Origin: Oscillibacter sp.
Lineage (GTDB): Bacteria > Bacillota > Clostridia > Oscillospirales > Oscillospiraceae
Length of the DNA stretch: 52,713 nucleotides
NCBI GenBank assembly: GCA_022652655.1
Contig: JALCRQ010000006.1
Location: forward strand, 1-52,713
Direction of reading: 5' to 3'
Below the pieces are notes generated by a model. The model did not search any database. It was given only the letters and a program-made list of their open reading frames with translations, and was not told the origin of the DNA. Positions 6,228-13,102 of this stretch are shown here, piece by piece; positions within the stretch are counted from its first letter, which is position 1; every line of letters begins with the position of its first letter. Position numbers and translations under genes: made by a program.

Positions 6228-8090
6228 ATGAAGAATTTCCCGGCCGGACAATTTGATATTGCGGTGATCGGCGCCGGCCACGCCGGGATCGAGGCGGCCC
6301 TGGCCGCCGCCCGGCTGGGCATGCGCACCATCATCTTTACCATCAACCTGGACGCGGTGGGCAACATGCCCTGCAATCCCGCCATCGGCGGCACCGGAAA
6401 GGGCCATCTGGTGCGGGAGCTGGATGCTCTGGGCGGAGAGATGGCCCGGGCCGCGGACGAATGCTGCATCCAGTACCGACTTTTGAACCGGGGCAAGGGC
6501 CCCGCCGTCTGGTCTCTGCGGGCTCAGGCGGACCGGCGGCGCTACCAGGACCGCATGAAGCGCGTCCTGGAAAACCAGCCCGGGCTCAGCGTCCGCCAGG
6601 GCGAGGTCACGGAGCTTCTTCCGGAGGACGGCGGTTTCCGGGCGGTGCTCTCCACTGGGGCGGTCTTTGCCGCCCGGGCGGTAATTCTGGCCACCGGCAC
6701 CTATCTCTCCGGCCGCACCATTGTGGGGCCGTACACCCAGGCCTCCGGCCCCGACGGGCTTCACGCGGCCGCCGCCCTTACCGATTCCCTTTTGAAGCTG
6801 GGCCTGCCCCTGCGGCGGTTTAAAACCGGCACGCCGCCCCGGGTGGCCGCGGGCAGCGTGGATTTCTCCGAGATGGAGCTGCAGCGGGGCGACGAAACGC
6901 CCCTGCCCTTTTCCTTTTCCACGGCGGCGCCGCCGGAAAACCGGGCCGTGTGCCACCTGACCTGGACCACGGAGGAAACGAAGCGCATCGTCCTGCGCAA
7001 TCTGGACCGCTCCCCCCTGTACTCCGGCGAAATCACCGGCGTGGGGCCCCGGTACTGCCCCTCCTTTGAAACCAAGGTGGTGCGCTTTCCCGACAAGGAG
7101 CGCCATCAGATTTTTGTGGAGCCCATGGGGCTGGACTCCGGCGAGCTCTATATCCAGGGTCTTTCCTCCTCCATGCCGGAGGACGTGCAGCTGGAGATGC
7201 TCCACAGTATTCCCGGCCTGCGCCGGGCGGAGATGACCCGTCCGGCCTATGCCATCGAATACGAGTGCATTGATCCGCTGGCCCTGCGCCCCACGCTGGA
7301 GGTCAAGGCCGTCCCCGGCCTGTACGGGGCCGGGCAGTTTAACGGTTCCTCCGGCTATGAGGAGGCCGCTGTCCAAGGCTTCGCGGCGGGCGTCAACGCC
7401 GTGCGGAAGCTCCGGGGGCAGAGCGAATGGATCCTTCGGCGCAGCGAGAGCTATATCGGCACGCTGATCGACGATCTCGTGACCAAGGGCACAAACGAGC
7501 CCTACCGGATGATGACCTCCCGGAGCGAGTACCGGCTTTTGCTGCGGGAGGACAACGCCGACCGGCGGCTGACCCGCCGGGGCTATGAGCTGGGCTTGGT
7601 GGATGAAGCGCGGCTCCGGGCGGTGGAGGAAAAGTACGCCGCCGTGGAGCGGGAGACACAGCGATTGGGCCGCACCGGCGTGGCCCCGTCGGCGGAGCTG
7701 ACCGCCTTCCTGGCGCAAAAGGGCTCGGCCGACGTTCCCGACGGCTGCCTTCTGGCCGACCTTCTGCGGCGGCCGGAGCTGGGCTACCGGGAGCTGACAC
7801 CCTTCGATCCGGAGCGTCCGCCTCTCTCCCCCGACGCCGCGGAGGAGGTGGAGCTGGCCATCAAGTACGAGGGGTACATCCGCCGGCAGCTCCGCCAGGT
7901 GGCGGAGTTCGACCGGATGGAGCTGCGCCCCCTCCCCCCGACGCTGGACTACGGGGCCGTGGCCGGACTGCGGCTGGAGGCCCGGGAAAAGCTGGGGGCG
8001 GTTCGCCCCGCCAATCTGGGACAGGCCTCCCGCATCTCCGGCGTGTCGCCGGCGGATCTGACGGCGCTGCTGGTCTATCTCGCCAAATGA
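6228..8090 (+). CDS. mnmG: tRNA uridine-5-carboxymethylaminomethyl modification enzyme, FAD subunit
   Basis: 620-aa FAD-dependent enzyme that, with MnmE, installs the (carboxymethyl)aminomethyl group on U34 of certain tRNAs. The dinucleotide-binding motif [19 protein letters not shown] is at residues 12-30, followed by the family signatures [23 protein letters not shown]-like [14 protein letters not shown], and the C-terminal [10 protein letters not shown] region. Length is normal. The ATG at 6228 has no good Shine-Dalgarno match, so translation may depend on readthrough from the upstream gene. In most Firmicutes mnmG adjoins mnmE and rsmG near the origin; here it does not. Confidence 0.95.
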
Positions 8091-8214
8091 TCCTGCAAAG
8101 GGCCCGGTTTTCAAAAGGGCGCGATTTTGCCCCGGTGGATTTTTTCCGGACGGAATGTCCGGCGCACAAGGTATCGGCTGTCATTATTACACTCCCAAAA
8201 AGGAAGGTTTGAAT

Positions 8215-8892
8215 ATGATTATTGACCTGACCCACACCATTAAACCCGACATGCCCATGTATCCCGGTTCCCCGGCCCCGGTGATGACCACCACCGCCAC
8301 CCTGCTGCGCAACGGCTATCACGAGACGCTTATGCAGCTGTCCTCTCACGCCGGCACCCATATGGACGCGCCCTCCCATCTGCTGCAAAACGGCTTCTCC
8401 CTGGACGTGGTGCCCGTTTCGCAGTTCTACGGCCGGGCCGCCGTGCTGGATGTGTCCGAGCTGGGAGAGGGCGGCGTCATCACCGAGAAGTTCCTCCGTG
8501 CCCGCAACGAGGATCTCCTCTCCGCCGACTTTGTACTGTTCTACACCGGCTGGGAGAAAAAATGGGACAGCCCAGACTACTTCGGGAAGTTCCCCGTGCC
8601 GGACACGGACGCGGCCCGGTATCTGGTCTCCTGCGGTCTGAAGGGCATCGGCACGGACGCCCTGTCCGTGGATCCTCTGGACAGCCGGGACCTGCCCGTC
8701 CACCGGGTCTTGCTGGGCGGCGGCCTGGTGATTGTGGAGTGCCTGTGCCTGCGGAAGATCATCGGCCGGGAGGACGTCATGTTCTTCTCCCTGCCCCTGA
8801 AGTTCGGCGAGGCCGACGGCGCGCCGGTTCGGGCGGTGGCGGAGTTCCGGGACTTCACCGAGCCCGACGGGGACGAGGGGGAAGCCGAATGA
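8215..8892 (+). CDS. Cyclase-family (kynurenine formamidase-like) metal hydrolase
   Basis: 225-aa protein of the Cyclase/KynB family (PF04199), metal-dependent hydrolases that open amide or lactone-type bonds. The family metal-binding motif HAGTHMDAPSH is at about residues 46-56, and MIIDLTHTIKPDMPMYPG at the N-terminus is typical. The ATG at 8215 follows AAGGAAGG. No tryptophan catabolic genes adjoin, so kynurenine formamidase activity is not supported. Instead, its stop codon overlaps the start of the MurT-like gene (ATGA), implying translational coupling and a shared pathway with the MurT/GatD-like pair. The 124 bases upstream hold a small hairpin (CCGGAC/GTCCGG, about 8147-8163) and no clear promoter. 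Confidence 0.85.
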   Translation: MIIDLTHTIKPDMPMYPGSPAPVMTTTATLLRNGYHETLMQLSSHAGTHMDAPSHLLQNGFSLDVVPVSQFYGRAAVLDVSELGEGGVITEKFLRARNEDLLSADFVLFYTGWEKKWDSPDYFGKFPVPDTDAARYLVSCGLKGIGTDALSVDPLDSRDLPVHRVLLGGGLVIVECLCLRKIIGREDVMFFSLPLKFGEADGAPVRAVAEFRDFTEPDGDEGEAE

Positions 8893-10226
8893 GAAAGTTC
8901 CTGGCCATCCTGGTGTGCAAGCTGGGCCGCTGGGTGGGCCGTCTCATCGGGAAGGGCAGCTCCATGCCCGGTCAGGCCGCGCTGAAGATCTGCCCCGACA
9001 TCCTCAGCCGGGTGACGCTCCCCGCCCACATCATCGCTGTCACCGGCTCCAACGGCAAGACCTCCACCGTGGAGATGATCGCCGCCATCCTCCGGGCCAA
9101 CGACAAAACCGTGGTTTACAACGAGGAGGGCTCCAACCAGATCGAAGGCGTGGCGACCATGGTTCTCACCCACTCGAATTTTTCCGGAACCGTTAAGGCC
9201 GACGTGCTGCTCATCGAATCCGACGAGCGCTATGCCGCCCACAGCTTCCGGTACTTCCACCCCACGGAGTTCGTCATCACCAATCTCTACCGGGATCAGC
9301 TCACCCGCAACGGCCATCCCGAGTGGGTATACAACGCCCTGAAGCCCGCCATCTATCCGGAGACGCTGCTGGTGCTCAACGCGGACGACCCGCTGTCCTC
9401 CTGCTTCGCCATCGGCCACGAGAAGGTCAAATGGTTCGGCATGGACGAGATTCCCGGGGACACTCACGCCCCCTCCGGGGCGTACCGCGACGGGGCCTAC
9501 TGCCCCGTGTGCAAGGCCCCCATGGAGTACGACTATTTCCACTACAACCACATCGGCGCCTACCGCTGCACCGGCTGCGGCCATCAAAAGCCCAAAACCG
9601 ACTACACCGCCACCGACGTGGATCTGGACAGCGGCCGGCTGACCATCGACGGGGACGTCTCCGTCCAGCTGGCTTTCCGCAGCATCTACAATGTCTACAA
9701 CATTCTGGCGGCCTATGCCGCCTGCCGGGAGTGCGGCGTGGAGAGCGCCGCCATCGCCGGCGTCATCAACAACTATATCCTCAAAAACGGGAGAATGCAG
9801 CGCTTTACCCTGGGGGCGCACCGCGGCACGCTCCTGACCTCCAAGCACGAAAATTCCATCGCCTACGACACCAACCTGCGGTATATCGCCTCCTCCCAGG
9901 CCCCCTGCGCGGTGCTGGTGGTGGTGGACGCCATTTCGCGGAAATACTTTACCAGCGAAACCAGCTGGCTCTGGGACATTGATTTTGACCGGCTGAACTT
10001 CCCCCACGTCCGGGAAATTTTCCTGGCCGGACGGTACGCCAACGATCTGGCGGTGCGCTTCAGCTTCACCGGGATCCCCGGTGAGAAGTGGAAGAGCCGC
10101 ATTTTCCCGGACATTCGGGAGGCCTGCGCCGCCCTGGCGGAGCACGGGGACGAGGAGCTCTACGTGGTGACCTGCTTCTCCGACCGGGACAAGGTTCTCT
10201 CGCAGGTTCAAAAGGAGGCGATGTGA
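8889..10226 (+). CDS. MurT-like Mur ligase (divergent)
   Basis: 445-aa Mur-ligase-fold protein with the MurT arrangement: ATP-binding P-loop TGSNGKTST (residues 52-60), an inserted zinc ribbon with Cys 205, 208, 227 and 230, LVLNADDPLSS, and a DUF1727-type C-terminal domain. MurT with GatD amidates D-glutamate of lipid II. Where known MurT proteins have a KNPxG-type motif after the central domain, this one reads TSKHENSIAYDTN (318-330). The segment before SWLWDIDFD reads RKYFTSET rather than the usual Asp-containing stretch. The partner glutaminase also looks inactive. It may therefore be a paralogue using another substrate or free ammonia (inference). The start overlaps the cyclase stop. Confidence 0.8.
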   Translation: MRKFLAILVCKLGRWVGRLIGKGSSMPGQAALKICPDILSRVTLPAHIIAVTGSNGKTSTVEMIAAILRANDKTVVYNEEGSNQIEGVATMVLTHSNFSGTVKADVLLIESDERYAAHSFRYFHPTEFVITNLYRDQLTRNGHPEWVYNALKPAIYPETLLVLNADDPLSSCFAIGHEKVKWFGMDEIPGDTHAPSGAYRDGAYCPVCKAPMEYDYFHYNHIGAYRCTGCGHQKPKTDYTATDVDLDSGRLTIDGDVSVQLAFRSIYNVYNILAAYAACRECGVESAAIAGVINNYILKNGRMQRFTLGAHRGTLLTSKHENSIAYDTNLRYIASSQAPCAVLVVVDAISRKYFTSETSWLWDIDFDRLNFPHVREIFLAGRYANDLAVRFSFTGIPGEKWKSRIFPDIREACAALAEHGDEELYVVTCFSDRDKVLSQVQKEAM

Positions 10227-10228
10227 AA

Positions 10229-10966
10229 ATGGACATCCGGATCGTTCACTTCTATCCCGACCTGATGAGCCTCTACGGCAGCTACGCCAACGTATCGCTG
10301 CTCCGGCGGCACCTGGAGGATCTGGGCTGCGCCGTCCGGGTGGACGCCGTGCGCCCCGGACAGGACGCGGAGCTCTCCGACGCGGATTTTCTCTTTATGG
10401 GCGCCGGAACCGAGCGGAGCCAGCAGGCGGCCGCCCGGGACTTCGCCCGGTTCGGCCCGGCGGTCAAATCCGCCGCCGCGGACGGCACGGCCATGCTGTT
10501 TGCCGGAACCGCCATGGAACTGCTGGGCCGCTCCGTCACCGCCGCCGACGGCACGCAGTTCGACGGCATCGGCCTGGCGGACTTTACCTCCGTCCAGGGC
10601 TCCCGGCGCTACACGGGCGACGTGTACGGCTTTACGGAGCTCTATGCTCCGGCCGCGGTGGGCTATATCAACAAGTGCGCCGTGATCTCCGGCGTGGAAA
10701 CGCCGCTGCTGACCTCCCTGAACATGGGCTTCGGCAACGAAAGGGAGTGCGGCCCCGAGGGCTATCACGCCGGCAGCGTGTTCGCCTCGGAGCTCACCGG
10801 CCCCCTGCTGGTGAAAAACCCCCTGATGCTGGCGGCGGTCCTCTCCGCCGTCTACGCCCGGCGGGGCCAGCCGCTGCCGGCGGAGCTCCCGTCCTATCCG
10901 TACGAGGAGCAGGGCTACGCCATTACGGCCCAGCAGCTCAAGCTCCGCAGCGAAAGCAAACACTGA
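10229..10966 (+). CDS. GatD-like class I amidotransferase lacking catalytic residues
   Basis: 245-aa protein with the GatD fold and order: N-terminal IRIVHFYPDLMSLYGSYANV, then MGAGTERSQQ, then the region where GatD carries its nucleophile elbow (CGGYQxLG-type). Here that region reads FAGTAMELLG (91-100), with no cysteine. Near the C-terminus, where a catalytic His is expected in LHGPLLPKNP, the sequence is LTGPLLVKNP (Thr190). Both key glutaminase residues thus appear absent although the fold and the MurT-like neighbour are retained. It may be a structural or regulatory subunit. AGGAGG lies 11 bases before the ATG, which starts just after the MurT-like stop. Two large hairpins follow. Confidence 0.75.
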   Translation: MDIRIVHFYPDLMSLYGSYANVSLLRRHLEDLGCAVRVDAVRPGQDAELSDADFLFMGAGTERSQQAAARDFARFGPAVKSAAADGTAMLFAGTAMELLGRSVTAADGTQFDGIGLADFTSVQGSRRYTGDVYGFTELYAPAAVGYINKCAVISGVETPLLTSLNMGFGNERECGPEGYHAGSVFASELTGPLLVKNPLMLAAVLSAVYARRGQPLPAELPSYPYEEQGYAITAQQLKLRSESKH

Positions 10967-10970
10967 GCGA

Positions 10971-11062
10971 AAAAAATGCGGCCCGGACGGAGGAACCTAT
11001 CCCCGTCCGGGCCGTCCGACGCTTTGAATGCCGCCTCTCCGGTTACCCGGAGGGGCGGCATT
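10971..11062. terminator. Two back-to-back hairpins between convergent operons
   Basis: The first (10979-10990 with 11003-11014, CGGCCCGGACGG stem) is followed on the minus strand by a six-T run (10976-10971), so it terminates the sulfatase gene. The second (11027-11042 with 11047-11062) is a 16-bp stem with one wobble and a four-base loop but only a weak T tract, and could slow polymerase in both directions. Confidence 0.75.
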
Positions 11063-11092
11063 CTGGCACCCGCGCCGGAACCGGCGGGGTTT

Positions 11093-13102
11093 TTATTCGG
11101 TGTCGCTGAGCACTTCCTTGTGCATATCCACCACGCTGACCACCAGATCCTGATAATCCGACGTACCGGGATCCTCGTCGATCCGGAGCAGCTCGGGGTT
11201 GACATAGGTGGTATCCAGGATTTTCCCGTCCACCGTGATCTTGCAGTAGGGGCTGAAATTCTCGCCCCGGACATACCAGACGTCGTCCCGCTGATACATG
11301 CCCTGAATCTTGATCTTGGCAAAGCCCATCTTCATATCCGCCGGCGTATAGGGGCTCTCGCCGTCGTAGAGGTAGCTTCTGCCGTACAGCACGTCGTACT
11401 GCAGCTCCTGCAGATCGGCGCGGTAGGTGGGATCCTTTCGGCAGTACTTCTGGAATTTCAGCATCAGCCCGTCCGAAATTCCGATCTCGCCCAGCGCCTC
11501 GGCGGAGAGCTGATAGGCGTTGATATCCTGATCCTTCTGCGGAAGGCCGAAGTTGTTCCAGATCACATACTTGGTCTTGTAGAGGCTGCCGGACTTCATG
11601 TCCGTTCCCTCCAGATTCAAAGAGGGCAGATGGTCACCGTAGAGAATCAGCATGGTCTTTTCGCCCCGGTCTGACAGCGCCTTGATCAGCTCGCTGATAA
11701 ACTGGTCCATCTCGTAGATCTGATTGGCGTAATACTCCACGGCGTTGGCGTTAATGGTGCCGGGGCAGGCCTCCACCGTAATGGCCGGATCCTCGATCAC
11801 TTTTTCCGTGGGATAGCTGCCGTGGCCCTGCACGGAGACGGTAAAGACCACGTCGGACTGGTTTTCCGTGGAGTCCAGCGCCTTGGCGATCTGATCGGTA
11901 AGCACATAGTCCTTGCACCAGCCTCTGGGCGTTCTCTGCACCCAGGGCATATACTCCAGCGACGTGAAGTCGTCAAAGCCCAGATTGGCGTAAACCGTGT
12001 TGCGGGTATAGAAGGTGGCGCGGTGGTTGTGAATGGCGTGGGCCGCGTAGCCCAGGGCCTTGAGGTCGTAGGCAATGGATTCGATGGCGTTGTCCTGGAG
12101 GCAGGTCTTGTAGGGGTATTCGCCGGGGCCGAACAGCCGGCTGGACATGCCGGTAAGCACCTCAAACTCGGTATTGGCGGTTCCCGCGCCCACCACGGGC
12201 ACCCGCAGGTAGCCGGAGGTAAAATTCTTCTCCAGCGCGTGCCACGTGGGCACCGCGTCCTGGTTGAGCTGCAGTCCCTGAATCTCGGAGGGATCCATAA
12301 AGGACTCCAGCTGCACATAGACCACGTTGACGTCCGTTTGGGGATCGGTCTTTTGGGGCGCACTCTTTTCGATCTCCTGGCGGATCCGGGTCACGTCGGC
12401 GGAGGAATAGTTCACCGGCTCCCGGATGCCCTTGTTGAGCCACGTCTCCAAAAAGCAGTAGGGAAACCCGTAGTCCTCATAGGCAAAGGCCAGGTTGGGG
12501 AAGGTGGTGGACAGCTGCCCCACCCGGAGCGCCGTAACCCACACGCCGGCCAGCGCGCCGCCGGAGACCGCCAGGGCCAAAAGCCCCGTCACCATCCGCC
12601 GGCGCAGCGGCTCGCGGCTTTTGGGCCCCCGGATGGCCAGCAGCACCAGCCCCACCAGCAGTCCCACCAGCGCGATGCCCAGCAGAACAATATAGCCGGT
12701 GGACATATAGTTGGGCAGCGTGTCCAGGCCCGTATTGAGCACCGTCAGATCGGCCGTGGTAAAGGGCGTCATGCGGCTCATCAGAATAAAGCCGTTGACG
12801 CCGCCTGCGATGATCCAGACAGCGGAGACCAGCGCGCACCAGAAAACCCGGCGGCGCAGAAAAAACGCAGGCGCCAGGGTCACCAGCACCATGAAAAAAT
12901 TCACCAGAAAGGCCAGGGGAAAATACCGGAAAAACCGGATCATCGACGCAAGGCCAGACGTAAACGCCTTATGATTGAAAAGCTCAATGACGACGGTGTC
13001 CACCAGCGCCAAAATTGGAATCCAGACAAATGCAGGCAGCTTCAAGCGCCTCGCATCCGGCACTTTGGGGGCACCCGCGGAGAAATGAAACCCGATCTTC
13101 AT
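11093..13102 (-). CDS. LTA-synthase-type membrane sulfatase/phosphoglycerol transferase
   Basis: 669-aa polytopic protein of the LtaS family, which polymerises or transfers phosphoglycerol to lipids or glycans. Five membrane segments fill residues about 25-190, and the extracellular sulfatase-fold domain runs from about 260 to 565. VYVQLESFMD and the nucleophile region GAGTANTEFEVLTG (Thr) are present, as are LYGDHLPS and HNHRATFYTRNTVYANLGFDDF. The final 100 residues form an Ig/IPT-like tail not found in the shortest LtaS proteins. Whether it makes lipoteichoic acid or modifies another polymer cannot be told. GTGAGGA precedes the ATG. The gene is monocistronic. Confidence 0.88.
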   Translation of the reverse strand: MKIGFHFSAGAPKVPDARRLKLPAFVWIPILALVDTVVIELFNHKAFTSGLASMIRFFRYFPLAFLVNFFMVLVTLAPAFFLRRRVFWCALVSAVWIIAGGVNGFILMSRMTPFTTADLTVLNTGLDTLPNYMSTGYIVLLGIALVGLLVGLVLLAIRGPKSREPLRRRMVTGLLALAVSGGALAGVWVTALRVGQLSTTFPNLAFAYEDYGFPYCFLETWLNKGIREPVNYSSADVTRIRQEIEKSAPQKTDPQTDVNVVYVQLESFMDPSEIQGLQLNQDAVPTWHALEKNFTSGYLRVPVVGAGTANTEFEVLTGMSSRLFGPGEYPYKTCLQDNAIESIAYDLKALGYAAHAIHNHRATFYTRNTVYANLGFDDFTSLEYMPWVQRTPRGWCKDYVLTDQIAKALDSTENQSDVVFTVSVQGHGSYPTEKVIEDPAITVEACPGTINANAVEYYANQIYEMDQFISELIKALSDRGEKTMLILYGDHLPSLNLEGTDMKSGSLYKTKYVIWNNFGLPQKDQDINAYQLSAEALGEIGISDGLMLKFQKYCRKDPTYRADLQELQYDVLYGRSYLYDGESPYTPADMKMGFAKIKIQGMYQRDDVWYVRGENFSPYCKITVDGKILDTTYVNPELLRIDEDPGTSDYQDLVVSVVDMHKEVLSDTE

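Follow-up and report, generated by a model that had tools for sequence, protein, structure and literature searches.

The DNA examined here, a contig of 52,713 nucleotides from Oscillibacter sp. (JALCRQ010000006.1, assembly GCA_022652655.1) referred to in its entirety as the window, encodes a MurT-like ligase and, directly after it, a GatD-like protein in which both the catalytic Cys and the catalytic His of GatD have been replaced. Comparison of their sequences across relatives shows that such pairs form an old, conserved clade under purifying constraint. The window pair plainly belongs to the MurT/GatD lineage, yet it lacks defining features of the glutamine-dependent enzyme: the Cys, the His and the MurT residue equivalent to Staphylococcus aureus Asp349 are missing and its NCBIfam scores lie below the cut-offs. 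It is very likely that the ligase has been kept and the glutamine-hydrolysing activity lost, and in place of glutamine the pair probably takes free ammonia or a different amine. The complete chain that we favour, an ammonia-dependent enzyme that amidates lipid II with GatD as its scaffold, is put forward tentatively, as a candidate that falls a little short of probable.

Amidation of D-Glu sets cell-wall cross-linking and determines what immune receptors see, and the species characterised so far rely on a glutaminase for it. Canonical MurT/GatD pairs are already well described; what appears to be new is a natural pair whose GatD has neither Cys nor His, in a common gut lineage that gave up the glutaminase while keeping the MurT/GatD complex. 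If ammonia is used directly, the pair would be a cell-wall counterpart of the carbamoyl phosphate synthetase CPS1, tying wall chemistry to gut ammonia; if another amine is used, it would make a new peptidoglycan modification, an undescribed chemistry in gut Oscillospiraceae. Either way, the label "glutamine-dependent amidotransferase" would misdescribe the protein in many genomes. A search of the titles and abstracts of open-licence papers returned no description of a GatD naturally lacking Cys and His, and the statements on MurT/GatD distribution in the available sections of PMC6085368 and PMC11915815 mention no Cys-less GatD.

The GatD-like subunit has lost its glutaminase residues

Almost the whole GatD-like protein aligns by HMMER with solved GatDs, four distinct sequences in all (E-values from 2.7e-23 to 7.4e-20). 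Gly93 falls under the catalytic Cys of the solved proteins (FAGTAMELLG versus TICGGYQFLG) and Thr190 under their catalytic His (LTGPLLVKN versus LHGPILPKN); both losses had been picked out in an earlier reading of the window by a model from its letters alone (the sequence-only reading). Named relatives came from a genome scan with an alignment of window-like MurTs, in which 80 of 401 tblastn-confirmed stretches were kept; their titles name Oscillibacter, Dysosmobacter, Pseudoflavonifractor, Oscillospiraceae, Enterenecus and uncultured Clostridia, and a GatD was found in 78 of the 80. Across the resulting 79 rows (the window and these 78 relatives), the Cys column is Gly in every row and the His column is Thr in 78, with one gap, so the two substitutions are not a matter of chance. 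Below, "dead" denotes a GatD without both catalytic residues and "canonical" one in which Cys and His are present.

The loss extends beyond these two positions. All three places of the catalytic triad are altered (GatD Gly93, GatD Thr190 and MurT Glu357), the canonical Glu-Asn-His stretch at GatD positions 147-149 is changed both in the window's clade and in a sister clade of dead pairs, and the oxyanion-side motif is changed as well. The glutamine-capturing Arg of S. aureus GatD, R128 (PMC5871853), corresponds to Arg127 here, and this residue is retained in 55 of 59 dead rows; among the 79 rows the column holds Arg in 77, Gln in one and a gap in one. The remaining Cys and His residues of the window GatD are Cys34, Cys150 and Cys174, and His7, His28, His180 and His245. 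In the window's clade Cys150 is fairly well conserved, with Cys in 71 of the 79 rows, Ser in six, Arg in one and a gap in one, but it is absent from all 32 sister-clade rows; His7, found in 76 of the 79, is equally common in canonical GatDs (39/45). In these two sets of rows, no alternative Cys/His pair is conserved through the dead lineage, and conservation makes a site built on Cys150 unlikely.

The AlphaFold2 (AF2) model of the GatD-like protein has a predicted local distance difference test score (pLDDT) of 97.5, and Foldseek gives a template modelling (TM) score, normalised to the query, of 0.90 against S. aureus GatD (6h5e_A); the predicted fold is intact. Its scores of 87.6 and 87.3 lie far under the NCBIfam GatD equivalog cut-offs of 400 and 450, respectively.

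The MurT-like ligase keeps its core and has acquired new residues

We compared MurT sequences in three groups: A, 15 window-like rows; B, 32 sister-clade rows; and C, 45 canonical rows. These groups leave aside 12 dead rows (L033, L051, L055, L059, L073, L091, L092, L185, L186, L187, L192 and L204), three canonical rows (L177, L196 and L200), seven partial rows and nine without GatD, while the counts for Arg114, His143 and Arg127 in dead and other rows take in all 123 rows (59 dead and 64 others). Retention was judged against positions marked by mutation or structure in Streptococcus pneumoniae MurT (PMC6085368). Asn83, Glu110, Asp112, Glu113, Asn132, Asp136, Arg140 and Lys319 are invariant in all 92 rows of the three groups, with Asn83 corresponding to the S. 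pneumoniae acceptor residue Asn85. The P-loop Lys57, the hinge Arg302 and the four zinc-ribbon Cys are also retained, and the N-terminal consensus G(K/R)G(S/T)xxPGxxALKICP is alike in the three groups; the adenine-side Asn at the place of S. pneumoniae Asn270 varies between rows.

Other positions set the dead clade apart. Arg114 is present in 55 of 59 dead rows and His143 in 51 of 59, each in none of the 64 others, and Asn141 occurs in all 47 rows of groups A and B and in none of the 45 canonical ones. The column of the third triad residue (S. aureus Asp349, S. pneumoniae Asp355) is Asp in 45/45 canonical rows, Glu in 15/15 rows of group A and Asn in 31/32 rows of group B. Activity was abolished or severely impaired by D349N in S. 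aureus; D355A in S. pneumoniae only reduced it (PMC6085368). The sequence-only reading had noted the kept P-loop and four Cys, a divergent KNPxG-like motif and an unusual segment before SWLWDIDFD, and the alignment bears this out: KNPxG has become KHENS in the window protein, with a two-residue insertion after Lys319 that is new in the dead clade, and the segment preceding SWLWDIDFD is altered. Donor-side motifs also differ between the two dead clades, with KHENS and SRKYxTxETSW in window-like rows versus KxxNA and xxNxxWLYD in the sister clade. The new conserved donor-side residues of the window's clade are His320, Glu321, Ser350-Arg351-Lys352-Tyr353 and Glu357, and the sister clade has a different set. 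The DNAAD segment, which papers on S. aureus tie to the stem peptide, is replaced in dead-clade MurTs.

The AF2 model of the MurT-like protein (pLDDT 91.4) finds solved MurT chains as its best Foldseek matches, with query TM scores of up to 0.73 for S. pyogenes and 0.52 for S. aureus; pseudomurein ligase C gives 0.68. The NCBIfam MurT equivalog cut-offs are missed by a wide margin (204.5 versus 800 and 200 versus 800). The window's own genome holds five Mur_ligase_M matches, this MurT among them, and one of the five carries a DNPR motif, which we take to mark the MurE that adds meso-diaminopimelic acid.

Dead pairs form an old clade and share no sampled genome with canonical pairs

In a sample of 150 genomes from the window's family, 95 have a MurT_C match, with bimodal scores, and 55 have none; 102 of the 103 MurT_C places were read, G081:C50 being left out. 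Sorted by the letters of their GatD, 52 of the 95 genomes carry dead pairs, 36 carry canonical pairs and none carries both. The first set comprises 51 genomes with dead pairs only and one with a dead pair plus a MurT without adjoining GatD; the second comprises 34 with canonical pairs only and two with an additional MurT of that kind. The rest are two genomes in which the Cys alone is lost and five with a MurT beside which no GatD was found, and over the whole family sample no GatD was found next to eight MurT loci. In each of two genera, g34 (G033/G124) and g42 (G041/G130), one species has a dead pair and another a canonical one.

The window's genome (63 contigs, 94% complete) has one MurT_C and one GATase_3 match, both belonging to the window pair, and ten named relatives, including Oscillibacter valericigenes Sjm18-20 (titled a complete genome), have exactly one MurT_C each. 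The second, canonical murT-gatD pair that the sequence-only reading had proposed looking for was thus found neither in this genome nor in these ten relatives.

A MurT tree of 121 rows, computed with the marker columns excluded and without L055 and L091 (partial) and L210-L220, groups 55 of the 57 dead rows together, set off by a single branch with a Shimodaira-Hasegawa-like approximate likelihood ratio test (SH-aLRT) value of 98; the tree was made by a quick method and is unrooted, with many weak inner branches. The dead rows L192 and L204 fall elsewhere. Three loci from outside the family (L185, L186 and L187), drawn from a phylum sample in which 12 automatically selected and 20 chosen loci were read, fall within the dead clade. 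This deep clade and the hundreds of relatives rule out a recently decayed gene. The eight GatD pairs with the lowest synonymous divergence (dS) have ratios of nonsynonymous to synonymous divergence (dN/dS) of 0.09-0.35; the method is simple and the pairs are not independent, so that only the closest pairs carry weight.

Loss of glutaminase residues is not confined to the main clade. The Cys alone is lost in the canonical-type rows L025, L028 and L195, which means that such loss also happens singly, and both Cys and His are lost in L204 and L219. Together, these five rows suggest that glutaminase loss recurs outside the main dead clade. The genome G083 (L219) is counted as dead, yet its MurT scores with the canonical ones, and for this reason it is probably a separate loss. 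Loci L188-L192 (family code f25) look like a different, more deeply altered pair: their GatD has Gly in the Cys column, keeps the His in four of five cases and is changed in the Arg127 column, while in their MurT Asp112-Glu113 is changed (KDI, SDI or KDP) and the loop reads RDQ. A MurT_C protein without a recognisable adjoining GatD occurs in L034, L035, L037, L040, L058, L193, L194, L199, L202 and L215-L217; several of these keep the Asp of the DxSW motif, and the MurTs of L215-L217 score as canonical. Such loci are possibly GatD-free, or their GatD is encoded elsewhere.

An ammonia-dependent enzyme as the favoured reading

The chemistry that we tentatively favour would run as follows. GatD would be permanently without glutaminase chemistry and would stay as a structural subunit needed by MurT. 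MurT would still phosphorylate a carboxylate, most probably that of the canonical MurT substrate, the D-Glu alpha-carboxyl of lipid II, and the phosphorylated carboxylate would be amidated with free ammonia taken up directly. Arg114, Asn141 and His143, near the acceptor site and the channel loop, may assist in the use of ammonium at neutral pH, and a cyclase-family hydrolase encoded directly upstream of MurT would be accessory. Among the parts of this chain, a lipid-linked wall precursor as acceptor seems likely, since the pattern in which dead and canonical pairs replace each other, together with the kept acceptor residues, suggests that the substrate is unchanged in kind; given that acceptor, free ammonia as the donor is rather to be expected.

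We favour ammonia because an S. aureus GatD mutant with the same Gly keeps its ability to use it and because CPS1 offers a precedent. S. aureus MurT with GatD C94G loses glutamine use and retains ammonia-dependent amidation of lipid II at pH 8.5, and MurT alone is inactive, GatD being required even when ammonia is supplied (PMC3266927). The window pair would resemble this mutant in having Gly for Cys, in keeping GatD as a partner and in the ammonia-dependent amidation proposed here; the mutant differs in carrying a single change, with His189 and MurT Asp349 present, and in using ammonia at pH 8.5 only. In mammalian CPS1, a glutaminase-like domain inactivated by replacement of its Cys is kept in an enzyme that takes external ammonia (PMC4655335). 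As there, the window pair has lost the nucleophile and kept the domain, and by analogy CPS1 may serve as a precedent for free-ammonia use. CPS1 differs in its unrelated synthetase half, in having Ser rather than Gly at the Cys position, in its fused chain and in having no role in the cell wall. Archaeal MurT-like proteins are likewise MurT relatives without a glutaminase (PMC11915815); these are archaeal and have no GatD at all, whereas the window lineage keeps a GatD-shaped partner.

Against the lipid II isoglutaminyl synthases of S. aureus, S. pneumoniae and S. pyogenes, the window pair is alike in gene content and order, in its MurT_C and GATase_3 domains, in its zinc-ribbon Cys, P-loop, acceptor and Mg residues, and in its GatD fold. 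It is unlike them in the missing Cys and His, in the replacement of Asp349 by Glu (Asn in the sister clade), in the changed oxyanion-side and Glu-Asn-His motifs, in the two-residue insertion at KN, in the new Arg114, Asn141 and His143, and in its low NCBIfam scores.

Several observations weigh against ammonia-dependent amidation of lipid II. The S. aureus complex did not use ammonia at pH 7.5 (PMC3266927), and if ammonia merely replaced glutamine, neither the retention of Arg127 nor the appearance of many new invariant charged residues (His320, Glu321, Arg351 and Lys352 in the window's clade) would be needed; these fit a site for an amine or amino acid as well or better. Four rows outside the clade in which Cys or His is lost (L025, L028, L195 and L204) have neither Arg114 nor His143, so these two residues are not a necessary answer to glutaminase loss, and replacing Glu143, the S. 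pneumoniae counterpart of His143, by Ala had minor effects (PMC6085368). The replacement of canonical by dead pairs could reflect lineage rather than the same function, and since 55 of the 150 genomes have no MurT_C, the role is dispensable. The MurT model reaches a TM score of only 0.52 against the S. aureus enzyme, and the median dN/dS of GatD over 1909 pairs, 0.39 versus 0.29 for MurT, points to weaker constraint on GatD.

Other explanations

The main rival, though an unlikely one, is a ligase that attaches a primary amine, either an amino acid or another small amine, straight to the alpha-carboxyl of D-Glu in the wall precursor, as occurs in walls that carry a substituent at this position; GatD would then bind the incoming molecule. 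That role would explain why Arg127 is kept, and a kept Arg127 together with new charged donor-side residues is what the binding of a molecule larger than ammonia would lead one to expect; the His320/Glu321, Ser350-Arg351-Lys352-Tyr353 and Glu357 set of the window's clade, the different set of its sister, and Arg114, Asn141 and His143 beside the acceptor site are consistent with it. A weak hint comes from sister-clade pairs that adjoin ATP-grasp genes of family PF14397 (L043, L044, L046 and L087) and an alanine racemase gene (L043 and L044), but a profile search of the window's own genome gave no PF14397 match. No such D-Glu substituent is described for these genera in the literature covered, where a 2024 review (PMC11382707) has an empty table entry for the wall type of Oscillibacter, and the ammonia precedent of GatD C94G requires no new chemistry. 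A fuller form of the proposal is doubtful: the amine that MurT attaches to the D-Glu alpha-carboxyl of lipid II would be something other than ammonia derived from glutamine, possibly an amino acid, and GatD would have turned from a source of ammonia into the subunit that binds this amine by way of Arg127. If true, the two sister clades with their different donor-side motifs would use two different amines.

Rather improbable is that the pair amidates or ligates a different carboxylate, on another wall or envelope precursor or on a small molecule processed by the cyclase. Replacement of the stem-peptide-linked DNAAD segment would fit, as would the hydrolase gene directly upstream in many loci (the cyclase, or an alpha/beta hydrolase in L049 and L069). 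Against this stand the retained acceptor residues (Asn83, Asp112 and Glu113) and N-terminal segment, the mutual replacement of dead and canonical pairs, and the frequent lack of a cyclase. The sequence-only reading had offered an ammonia-dependent version, a regulatory version or a re-purposed Mur ligase; the first and last survive as live readings, and the retention of most ATP and acceptor residues in MurT makes a purely regulatory function less likely. A pair without any ligase activity, acting as a regulator or on its way out, is very improbable: triad residues are indeed lost in both subunits, but through the groups MurT retains the P-loop and the majority of its residues for ATP, Mg and acceptor, dN/dS is low in close pairs and the predicted folds are intact. 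Least credible of all is a takeover of glutamine hydrolysis by Cys150 or another residue. The frequency of Cys150 in the window's clade and the kept Arg127 could speak for it; against it, the Cys150 column holds Ser or Arg in seven of 79 rows, the sister clade has no Cys there and the Glu-Asn-His stretch is changed in both clades.

The locus, the cyclase and neighbouring genes

The cyclase, MurT-like and GatD-like genes are tightly packed on the + strand, the stop of the first and the start of the second overlapping as ATGA (Table 1), and coordinates and Pfam families agree with the three overlapping or adjoining genes of the sequence-only reading. Each domain scores above its own Pfam cut-off: 114.7 bits for the cyclase (PF04199), 48.1 and 71.6 bits for the MurT-like protein (PF08245 and PF08353) and 44.2 bits for the GatD-like protein (PF07685).

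Table 1. Genes and key codons of the window locus
Feature	Position	Strand	Basis
Cyclase-family metal-dependent hydrolase (PF04199), accessory gene of the cluster	8215..8892	+	Profile match; HxGTHxDAPxH stretch kept
MurT-like ligase (445 aa) belonging to the clade with dead GatD	8889..10226	+	PF08245 and PF08353
GatD-like protein (245 aa) lacking the catalytic Cys and His; putative scaffold subunit	10229..10966	+	PF07685
GatD Gly93 codon, column of the catalytic Cys (S. aureus C94)	10505..10507	+	Alignment
GatD Thr190 codon, column of the catalytic His (S. aureus H189)	10796..10798	+	Alignment
GatD Arg127 codon, a retained residue aligned with S. aureus R128, which captures glutamine	10607..10609	+	Alignment
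MurT Arg114 codon, beside the Mg-binding Asp112-Glu113; mark of the dead clade	9228..9230	+	Alignment counts
MurT His143 codon, in the loop proposed as ammonia channel (Glu in canonical MurT)	9315..9317	+	Alignment; loop from PMC6085368
MurT Glu357 codon, column of S. aureus Asp349 and S. pneumoniae Asp355	9957..9959	+	Alignment

The sequence-only reading had treated the three genes as a coupled trio, to be doubted if absent outside this one genome. The order cyclase-MurT-GatD recurs in 37 of the 80 named loci, with identical spacing in 27 of them, and the coupling of MurT with GatD is conserved. The cyclase, by contrast, is not part of the conserved unit, which is MurT and GatD: in 37 other named loci no cyclase lies upstream, which rules out the trio as an obligatory unit, and the remainder have an incomplete cyclase (two loci) or too little upstream sequence (four). 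With fewer than half of the 80 loci showing it next to MurT, we regard the cyclase as accessory. Among the loci of the family sample, the window, L076 and the sister-clade locus L046 have the cyclase directly upstream; elsewhere the slot holds gene cluster 2, presumably MnmG, or an alpha/beta hydrolase, as in L049 (7308-8006) and L069 (7307-7960), where the latter stands directly upstream of MurT in the place of the cyclase. Two loci of Pseudoflavonifractor phocaeensis (L098, 5796-6032, and L068, 7256-7492), which lie on contigs of equal length and may be one genome, have a 78-codon cyclase-like frame upstream of an intact MurT/GatD, and the cyclase there is apparently broken.

The cyclase shares its family and the metal-site His stretch HxGTHxDAPxH of PF04199 with kynurenine formamidases and isatin hydrolases, and differs in scoring 98.6 bits against the cut-off of 223.05 for the arylformamidase KynB (TIGR03035). 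For the suggestion that it might open or close an amide or lactam for the ligase, these comparisons produced no evidence.

Sugar-transfer-associated ATP-grasp genes (cluster 7) adjoin dead pairs in L043, L044, L046, L048 and L087, with PF14397 confirmed for those of L043 and L046; in L043 and L044 an alanine racemase gene lies beside the ATP-grasp gene. A promoter scan of positions 8000-11150 gave no promoter-like site on the + strand, and a scan for terminators gave terminator-like sites on both strands at 10979-11086; neither result is used as support. A strong terminator-like hairpin of 14 pairs lies at 10979-11014, between gatD and a gene on the opposite strand (11093-13102) that we take to encode an LtaS-type protein of the sulfatase fold.

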